Below, piece by piece: positions 7,729-9,391 of a DNA stretch of 64,000 nt (its first letter is position 1; each line of letters starts with the position of its first letter). Source of the DNA: Leptolyngbya sp. BL0902 (GTDB lineage: Bacteria > Cyanobacteriota > Cyanobacteriia > Phormidesmidales > Phormidesmidaceae). The position numbers were made by a program, and so were the translations under genes. The notes beneath the pieces were generated by a model. It saw nothing but the letters and a program-made list of their open reading frames with translations. It was not told the DNA's origin and made no database searches. The stretch is taken from positions 372,001 through 436,000 of the forward strand of contig NZ_CP046155.1 of assembly GCF_016403105.1 (NCBI RefSeq). The letters run 5' to 3'.

Positions 7729-8391
7729 GTGCCTACTACCCGCCGTCCTCCCAAAAAGCAGCGTGCCTTGGAGATTTTGAGTCGGCTCAAGGATCTCTAC
7801 CCCGAAGCCCCCTGCTCCCTTGATTTTGAGACCACCCTACAACTGATGGTGGCTACAATCCTTTCGGCCCAGTGTACGGATGCGCGGGTCAACCTGGTGA
7901 CGCCCGCCCTATTTGCCGCCTATCCCGATGTCTATGCCTTTGCCGAGGCCGATTTGGCCGAATTGGAAGCCCTGATTAAATCCACGGGCTTTTATCGCAA
8001 TAAGGCTAAGAATATTCGAGCCGCCTGCCAGCGGATTGTTACCGAGTACAACGGTGAAGTTCCTGCCACCATGGAAGACCTGCTGACCCTGCCTGGAGTA
8101 GCCCGCAAAACCGCCAACGTTGTTTTGGCCCATGGCTTTGGCATCAACGCCGGAGTGACGGTGGACACCCACGTTAAACGCATCACCAATCGCCTAGGGC
8201 TGACCAAACACAGTGACCCCATCCACATCGAGCGCGACTTGATGAAGCTGCTGCCCCAGCCCGACTGGGAAAACTGGTCGATTCGACTGGTCTACCACGG
8301 ACGAGCGGTGTGCATGGCCCGCAATCCCAACTGCAACGCCTGCACTCTGGCCGACCTATGCCTATCAGCCCCTAAGCTGCCGAGGTCGTAA
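7729..8391 (+). CDS. nth: Endonuclease III, bifunctional DNA glycosylase/AP lyase
   Basis: Predicted 220 residues from a GTG start. It removes oxidised pyrimidines and nicks the abasic site in base excision repair. The helix-hairpin-helix is LPGVARKTANVV, containing the catalytic lysine (RKTAN). The catalytic aspartate lies in VDTHVKR. The C-terminal 4Fe-4S cluster loop is complete (Cys-x6-Cys-x2-Cys-x5-Cys, CMARNPNC...C). The GTG start gives the normal N-terminal length. It may share a transcript with the protease gene upstream. Confidence 0.95.
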   Translation: MPTTRRPPKKQRALEILSRLKDLYPEAPCSLDFETTLQLMVATILSAQCTDARVNLVTPALFAAYPDVYAFAEADLAELEALIKSTGFYRNKAKNIRAACQRIVTEYNGEVPATMEDLLTLPGVARKTANVVLAHGFGINAGVTVDTHVKRITNRLGLTKHSDPIHIERDLMKLLPQPDWENWSIRLVYHGRAVCMARNPNCNACTLADLCLSAPKLPRS

Positions 8392-8407
8392 AAAAGCAAC
8401 AAAAAAG

Positions 8408-8537
8408 CTAGTTGACTGACAAAACTTGCCATAACCCAGATTCGTCAAAGGGTCAGGAGACTTGACCCCTCCATGATTCCAATACTGTAGGGGCGCGGTT
8501 TTCGCGCCTGGTTCAGAATCTTTTGTCAGTCAACCAG
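8408..8537. mobile_element. MITE of 130 bp with 17-bp terminal inverted repeats and 9-bp target duplication
   Basis: The left end reads CTAGTTGACTGACAAAA (8408-8424) and the right end TTTTGTCAGTCAACCAG (8521-8537); they are inverted repeats matching at 16 of 17 positions. The element is flanked by a perfect 9-bp direct repeat, ACAAAAAAG, at 8399-8407 and 8538-8546. There is no coding capacity inside. The interior has a GC-rich palindrome (GGCGCGGTTTTCGCGCC) near 8492-8508. These are the marks of a non-autonomous transposable element mobilised by a transposase with 9-bp target duplication. No transposase with matching ends is in this window. Confidence 0.85.
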
Positions 8538-8539
8538 AC

Positions 8540-8568
8540 AAAAAAGAGCAACGGTGAACCCGTTGCTC
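8540..8568 (-). terminator. Intrinsic terminator of tsf
   Basis: On the minus strand, downstream of the tsf stop, the stem GAGCAACGG (8546-8554) pairs with CCGTTGCTC (8560-8568) across a 5-nt loop and is followed by six T (8540-8545). The T-run is part of the 9-bp target duplication of the neighbouring MITE, so the element landed in the terminator and left its T-tract intact. Confidence 0.8.
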
Positions 8569-8647
8569 CTTAATTTAAGTTGCCGATAAATGCCCCACTC
8601 TTTGCTCTATCTAGCGATCAAGGCGTGGGGTGGGCTACCTTCTAGCG

Positions 8648-9391
8648 CTACTTCTTCTTCTTTTTCTTGGCGGTGCCAGCAGCGGCTTCTGACTTTGCTT
8701 CAGTCTTTTCTTCGACGGGGGCGGGTGCTTCCTTCTTCAGGCCAGCTTGAGCTGCCACTTCAGCCGCGAAATCGACCTCTTCCTTCTCAATGCCTTCGCC
8801 CAACACAAAGCGCTGAAAGCGGCGCACCTGGATATTTTCACCCAGTTGAGCGATGGTTTGCTTGATCAGCTCTTCAATCGAAATGTTTTGGTCTTTGATG
8901 TAGGGCTGATCCATCAGGGCCAATTCCTTCAGGCGCTTTTGAATGCGGCCTTCCACAATTTTCTCGCGCATGGCTTCGGGCTTGTTCGCGAGGTCATCGC
9001 GGCCCATTTCGATGGATTTTTCTTTGGCAATGGTATCTGCCGGAATCTCATCGACCTTCACATATTCCACGTTGGGGCAGGCCGCGATCTGCATGGCGAT
9101 GTCGCGGGCCAGGCTTTTGAATTCTTCCCGGCGAGATACGAAGTCGGTTTCGCAGTTTACTTCTACCAGTACACCCACCCGGCTCCCGGTGTGGATGTAG
9201 CTCTCGACCAAGCCTTCAGCGGCTACCCGGCCCTCTTTTTTGGAGGCGGAGGCGATACCCTTTTGTCGCAGCCACTCAATGGATTTTTCGATGTCGCCAT
9301 CGTTTTCCTTCAGGGCTTTTTTGCAGTCCATCATGCCTGCGCCTGTCTGGTCGCGCAGCTCTTTAACCAGCTTTGCAGAAATGTCTGCCAT
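8648..9391 (-). CDS. tsf: Elongation factor Ts
   Basis: Predicted 247 residues. EF-Ts is the nucleotide exchange factor for EF-Tu. The N-terminal UBA-like helices ([20 protein letters not shown]) and the EF-Tu contact segment ([10 protein letters not shown]) are clear. The core is the short type common in cyanobacteria and chloroplasts. A C-terminal tail of about 35 residues is rich in Lys, Glu and Ala and ends KKKKKK. It lies downstream of rpsB in the usual rpsB-tsf order. Confidence 0.96.

Follow-up and report, generated by a model that had tools for sequence, protein, structure and literature searches.

A short segment bounded by inverted repeats lies between two convergent genes of the window, by which we mean the whole 64-kb stretch of DNA that was analysed, and it raises the question of whether it is a genuine mobile element and, if so, which transposase would move it. 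The upstream gene (7729..8391, plus strand) encodes an endonuclease III-like protein and we take it to be nth, and the downstream gene (8648..9391, minus strand) is presumably tsf, which encodes an elongation factor Ts-like protein. Our preferred reading, to which we assign a probability of about 0.93, is that the segment is a non-autonomous MITE of an IS4-family insertion sequence (IS) and is moved by the transposase of that IS.

Structure of the element

A sequence-only reading had proposed a 130-bp MITE with 17-bp ends and a perfect 9-bp duplication on either side, and this description is exact at positions 8399-8546. The features are as follows.

8399..8407, no strand: left target-site duplication ACAAAAAAG (from the sequence and from comparison of family flanks)
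8408..8537, plus strand: MITE, 130 bp (from its ends, genome copies and flank comparison)
8408..8424, plus strand: left terminal inverted repeat CTAGTTGACTGACAAAA; base 3 is A here and G in most copies
8450..8472, minus strand: left core palindrome, family form GGGTCAGG-AGA-CCTGACCC, with an inward tag
8487..8509, plus strand: right core palindrome with GTAG tag, GTAG-GGGCGCG-GTTTT-CGCGCCT
8521..8537, minus strand: right terminal inverted repeat, CTGGTTGACTGACAAAA on the minus strand (from the sequence)
8538..8546, no strand: right target-site duplication ACAAAAAAG (from the sequence and from comparison of family flanks)
8543..8571, minus strand: probable intrinsic terminator of the minus-strand gene, a strong hairpin whose T-run is the duplicated target

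The terminal inverted repeats, CTAGTTGACTGACAAAA and TTTTGTCAGTCAACCAG, are complementary at 16 of 17 positions. There are only two places in the window that match the 14-base core of the ends with no more than two mismatches, where 0.19 would be expected, and these are the two ends of the element. It was described earlier as geneless, and indeed no ORF of 60 or more amino acids overlaps it.

The element folds far better than shuffled sequences (z of -5.5 as RNA and -6.0 as DNA), and the fold is composed of the paired ends and two inner hairpins. A reading of the MITE as a conserved RNA was considered and dropped. A search of positions 8200-8800 against Rfam returns four matches, all far under the cut-off and with no family at it, and compensatory changes in 31 aligned copies show no excess over shuffles. 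Because covariation does not exceed that of shuffles, we claim no function for the MITE fold.

Copies and target-site duplications

With the 130 bp as query, 24 MITE places are detected in the window's own genome, which spans 4.71 Mb in six contigs; the window copy is one of them. They are distributed over contig 1 (22 places) and contig 4 (two places) at 72-100% identity, and several are partial. Perfect 9/9 duplications are present at eight of the 24 places when the flanks are taken strictly at the element ends, and L007 provides a ninth if its right end is set 4 bp shorter. Eight places (L003, L006, L009, L010, L011, L012, L018 and L021) carry matches at 6-8 of nine positions, located at the same or a 4-bp-shifted position, and a clear duplication is absent in seven (L013, L014, L016, L017, L019, L022 and L024).

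As a control, the left flank of one copy was paired with the right flank of another. None of the 552 pairs matches at 9/9, whether the flanks are taken strictly or loosely, and the best strict pair reaches 8/9. Matches of at least 6/9 do arise in these pairs (14 strict and 89 loose, n = 552), and therefore the partial duplications weigh less. Perfect strict duplications of 6, 7, 8, 10, 11 or 12 bp are not found among the 24 places. Thus, nine perfect duplications in 24 places, against none in 552 controls, indicate that the MITE family transposed with a 9-bp stagger and that the duplications are not due to chance.

MITE matches are found in eight of 56 genomes of relatives. Many copies are carried by G002 and G021, which belong to the same genus, and by G041, which belongs to another family; G032 holds only part of the core. 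No MITE copy is found in plasmid records. The own genome also holds two lone MITE-type ends (C1:762038 and C1:2169996) with no partner end nearby.

Parent insertion sequences

A pattern scan of public genome contigs for the 17-base end CTGRTTGACTGACAAAA, in which one base is degenerate, returns at least 112 stretches. Some tens of chance matches are expected in 257 billion bases, and single-end matches are therefore not counted as evidence. Both ends are present 1322-1323 bp apart around an ORF of 381-382 amino acids in L100 (Nodosilinea nodulosa PCC 7104), L104 and L122, and L100 is flanked by a perfect 9-bp duplication. A protein search for the transposase in 26 genomes of the genus, the own genome included, finds intact relatives with 78-81% identity in four congeners (G009, G016, G022 and G025). 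In the congener IS copies L194, L195, L196 and L197, 16-17 of the 17 end bases are those of the MITE, and perfect 9-bp duplications surround these copies. L197, from G009 of the same genus, is the same insertion as L100, with the same IS and the same flanking duplication, which suggests that the genus is probably that of Nodosilinea. In the congeners and in L100, L104 and L122 the parent IS is 1321-1323 bp long.

Eleven distinct IS with paired ends were examined. A perfect 9-bp duplication is found for four of them (L100 = L197, L194, L195 and L196) and a 10-bp duplication for two (Moorena L161 and Acaryochloris L316), and none is seen for the other five (L104, L122, L091, L151 and the pSYSM copy L315). 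The earlier expectations that a search with the terminal repeats would reveal further copies and a full-length IS with the same ends and 9-bp duplications, and that ends and duplication length would be enough to recognise the parent family, are thus borne out. From these sequences we identify the parent type of the MITE as an IS of about 1.32 kb that shares its ends, is flanked by 9-bp duplications and encodes a predicted 381-382-aa IS4-type DDE transposase. The window element is a genuine MITE: it is short and non-coding, it has inverted ends, dispersed copies and a duplication of fixed length, and there is an autonomous partner with the same ends.

When the MITE consensus is compared by BLAST with nine full-length IS, the shared sequence is limited to the outer 17-26 bp and matches of no more than 15 bp. 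This indicates that the core of the MITE is not IS sequence and that the MITE did not arise by simple deletion from any of these nine IS. Six small elements of 141-297 bp in other cyanobacteria (L076, L096, L120, L125, L142 and L144) have the same 17-bp ends around other cores, and perfect 9-bp duplications flank L076, L125, L142 and L144 but not L096 and L120. Only pieces of the exact-end transposase are seen in the MITE-bearing congeners G002 and G021, whose assemblies are fragmented.

Several additional arrangements of these ends were observed. L208 (G021:C639) is 683 bp long, retains the two exact ends together with pieces of transposase, and might be a step between IS and MITEs. L217 (G025) has four exact ends in a single stretch with an intact transposase within, and its outermost pair is flanked by a perfect 9-bp duplication, CCGCGATCG; the arrangement is either nested or recombined. 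One Anaerolineae MAG (JALXCB01, Chloroflexi) includes several matches to the 17-bp end, beyond chance for one genome (L099, L130, L139, L152, L153, L158, L168 and L177), with no related transposase in the stretches read.

The transposase and its family

The Pfam model DDE_Tnp_1 is matched above its cut-off by all three transposases searched. The NCBIfam IS4 model NF033591 gives 112 and 128 bits against a cut-off of 152 (E values of 2.5e-32 and 5.6e-37). In an alignment of eight transposases, D92, D155 and the Y-2-R residues are invariant. The signature E is present in seven of the eight, L196 being the exception with K. At the last position of YREK, the six exact-end proteins have Q and the two cousins have K. 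No relative was found among solved structures by sequence or profile search.

The fit to known systems is best for the IS10 subgroup of the IS4 family as characterised in PMC2266710. The 1321-1323 bp of the parent IS fall within the 1200-1350 given for this subgroup in Table 1, and also like the IS10 row are ends that begin with CT, a 9-bp duplication, a DDE transposase encoded in one frame and a Y-2-R-3-E motif. In contrast with the IS4 family as described there, the six exact-end proteins have glutamine in place of the YREK lysine, the duplications of two IS measure 10 bp and the NCBIfam score lies below its cut-off. On sequence grounds, the parent IS probably fits within the IS4 family and appears IS10-like by size, ends and duplication.

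Two IS on cyanobacterial plasmids carry the same 17-bp ends. The one on plasmid pSYSM of Synechocystis PCC 6803 (NC_005229.1, 65331-66480) is 1321 bp long, differs by one base at one end and lacks a visible duplication; its annotation gives it two ORFs. The other, on plasmid pREC4 of Acaryochloris marina, is 1361 bp long and has a 10-bp duplication. Their transposases are 75% and 67% identical, respectively, to that of L104.

A cousin IS in the own genome

Transposase and end searches of the own genome detected no intact IS with the exact MITE ends. The claim that the transposase would be supplied from elsewhere is supported by same-end IS in congeners and other cyanobacteria, and the donor enzyme is deduced from these relatives. 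What the own genome does contain is a cousin IS of about 1313 bp, with ends CTGACTGCCTGACAGAA or near and a transposase that is 40% identical. There are ten copies (L181-L190) on contigs 1, 3 and 5, of which seven are 99.9-100% identical to one another, one is 99.5%, one is 88% and one, which is shortened, is 87%. Perfect 9-bp duplications flank eight of the ten. The near identity of the seven copies indicates that the cousin IS was recently active in this genome. Its ends differ from those of the MITE at 3-4 of 17 bases, and it is, judging by sequence, the only candidate helper found in this genome. Since the source IS was not found there, the MITE family is probably immobile in the genome now, unless the cousin IS still moves it.

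Also present in the own genome is a second MITE-like element of 147 bp (L275, C1:1138807-1138953) with cousin-like ends and a long inner palindrome, GTAGGTTGGG...CCCAACCTAC. A clear duplication is not seen in its flanks.

GTAG palindromes in the core

The family core has the form GGGTCAGG-AGA-CCTGACCC-CTAC, a spacer, and GTAG-GGGCGCG-GTTTT-CGCGCCC. It is therefore composed of two palindromes with their GTAG tags pointing toward one another, and the left tag is altered in the window copy, where the minus strand reads GGAG in place of the GTAG of the family consensus. The consensus palindromes have the form of GTAG REPs, with an unpaired GTAG tag, a stem of 5-13 bp and a short loop, and the MITE core may thus be described as resembling GTAG-tagged REPs. 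With up to three mismatches allowed, the right palindrome has 29 matches in the own genome; 18 are located in MITE copies and 11 outside them, and all 11 have two or three mismatches. In G032, which is from the same family and another genus, the right half occurs without MITE ends in the five loci read, and is in tandem in one.

One protein of the own genome resembles REP-associated tyrosine transposases, with a score of 65.3 bits against a cut-off of 80. The protein has 256 aa (L314, C1:3431278), and two GTAG palindromes that stand alone are located about 5.6 kb away from it.

According to PMC3733652, GTAG-tagged REPs of cyanobacteria are often dimers located downstream of genes, and sometimes lie within other palindromes. 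The paired GTAG palindromes of these dimers, with stems of 7-8 bp and positions mostly at gene 3' ends, are like the MITE core. PMC10969869 mentions a MITE with a GTAG REP for Coxiella, and QMITE2 with its GTAG REP indicates that REPs within MITE-like or palindromic sequence have already been reported. Unlike in these REP dimers and QMITE2, the REP-like pair is here enclosed by IS4-type ends. Nezha, a cyanobacterial MITE cited in both papers, is small and non-coding with inverted ends, as here, and the likeness is one of description only. Among the papers listed by searches of the open-access literature there is no description of the element or of a REP pair within IS4-type ends, and the element may already have an ISfinder name.

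Genomic placement

The window MITE sits in the T-run of the hairpin at 8543-8571, between the convergent genes. This hairpin is the probable terminator of tsf. Because the duplicated 9 bp are the T-run itself, the anatomy indicates that the tsf terminator would stay whole after insertion.

Genes were called with a simple codon-usage caller that allows overlaps of up to 20 bp, and none of the 24 MITE places lies inside a called gene. For the 23 copies with both neighbours called, the arrangement is convergent in 10, divergent in five and tandem in eight, counts that carry error because two looks at the gene calls disagree on some neighbours. Convergent spacers account for 4678 of the 52176 intergenic bases in the stretches read, a background made up of the stretches around the MITE and cousin-IS places plus the window rather than a random sample. 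On this basis the convergent excess has a binomial probability of 1.3e-5 by bases, or 0.0024 with each intergenic region counted once. The simplest cause of this placement would be selection against insertion in genes and promoters.

Two other ideas about placement were rejected. In a cruder look at 18 copies, gene disruption was considered for L009, whose empty site would be spanned by a 104-aa minus-strand ORF, and this ORF is not called by the later caller. As for targeting of terminators, a terminator-like hairpin is close to two of the 17 copies whose duplication is recognisable, compared with 13 of 400 random intergenic window positions; two copies are too few for a claim of targeting.

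Age of the insertion and the search for an empty site

The precise junction had been taken as a sign of recent movement, a claim that finds no support here. A perfect 9-bp duplication alone dates an insertion little. The window copy has diverged from the family consensus by 11.5%, and the nearest of the 30 other aligned copies belongs to another species (G002, 10.8% apart), with the nearest own-genome copy at 12.6%. Among the 18 near-full copies of the own genome, the closest pair is 7.7% apart and the median pair 24%. With the nearest copy in another species and the copies so diverged, the diversity within the family appears to predate the species, and the data do not support recent movement. 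When all 31 copies are placed in a tree, support at the window copy is weak (0.27), and the tree was left unused. The 14 copies fetched from relatives, which are part of all those present, include no perfect duplication, and the best matches at 7/9. The nine perfect duplications of 24 in the own genome, against none of these 14, suggest later MITE activity in the own lineage.

There are 25 congeners to compare at this position. Both nth and tsf are matched in 24 of them, and neither is matched in G021. The two genes are on different contigs in 23 of the 24, a split that by itself leaves adjacency possible in draft assemblies, and they are 1.7 Mb apart in G012. Conservation of the segment at this position in relatives, or a lack of other copies and of same-end IS, had been named as outcomes that speak against a MITE. 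Other copies and same-end IS exist, and there is no MITE match on the nth or tsf contigs of the 24 congeners with both genes. The flanks of 19 nth and nine tsf congener loci hold other sequence, and the element is absent. Because nth and tsf are never found side by side in the congeners, an orthologous empty site could not be demonstrated. For two other MITE copies, L259 and L258, no joined site was found either. The genes nth and tsf are neighbours at 7729-9391 of the window and were not seen next to each other in the 24 congeners with both, and the same is true of the neighbours of L259 and L258.

Mechanism and competing explanations

To the observed ends, duplications, matching IS and DDE residues of its transposase, the IS4 family adds by analogy cut-and-paste movement and action in trans. 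The transposase, made from a full-length element, would bind the 17-20-bp ends of the MITE, cut it out and insert it with a 9-bp staggered cut, which would yield the 9-bp duplication. The two inward-tagged GTAG palindromes would travel as cargo. At this locus, the insertion would have struck the T-run of the terminator that probably serves tsf, in the spacer between convergent genes.

A different source of the moves in the own genome might be the resident cousin IS, acting by cross-mobilisation. It is the sole intact relative found there, and its seven nearly identical copies and eight duplications of 9 bp speak for it as a helper. However, 3-4 of its 17 end bases differ from those of the MITE whereas congener IS match at 16-17 of 17, and MITE copies are far more diverged than cousin copies, which makes us regard this source as rather unlikely. 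Somewhat less probable still is a composite of two mobile systems, in which an IS4-type MITE carries a GTAG REP pair and the IS transposase spreads such pairs to convergent gene ends, where they would terminate transcripts in both directions or stabilise them.

The unit might alternatively be a selected 3'-end element, such as a terminator, mRNA stabiliser or small RNA, that is merely MITE-like. The fold that surpasses shuffles and the location of 10 of 23 copies between convergent genes count in its favour. Weighing against it, compensatory changes are not in excess in the 31 copies, no Rfam family reaches its cut-off, the insertion is not seen at nth or tsf in congeners, and selection against insertion in genes and promoters would explain the placement; we judge it very improbable. 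We give even less credence to the view that the unit is a REP/REPIN-type repeat whose outer ends are mere passengers and which is moved by a REP-associated tyrosine transposase. The two GTAG-tagged palindromes of the core, the 11 of 29 right-palindrome matches outside MITEs and the REP-transposase-like protein of the own genome are all compatible with such movement, and copies favour convergent gene ends, as PMC3733652 reports for REPs. Nevertheless, the mobile unit has 17-bp inverted ends in common with DDE-type IS, the match of that protein to the REP transposase model is below cut-off, and duplications at the outer ends speak against REP-type movement of the whole unit. HUH transposases are not known to make 9-bp duplications.

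On our preferred reading, a MITE moved by the transposase of its parent IS, the element is thus ordinary in kind. Its family is an old one in this genome, its parent is clear, and its REP-like core is mildly unusual. It provides a clean pairing of a MITE with its parent for an IS4-type element in cyanobacteria, wherein the duplications reveal the geometry of the cut. The REP-like core offers a modest test case for the dispersal of REP units. These findings also suggest that a MITE family can persist in a genome after its transposase has been lost there, with sister species still retaining an intact source IS.
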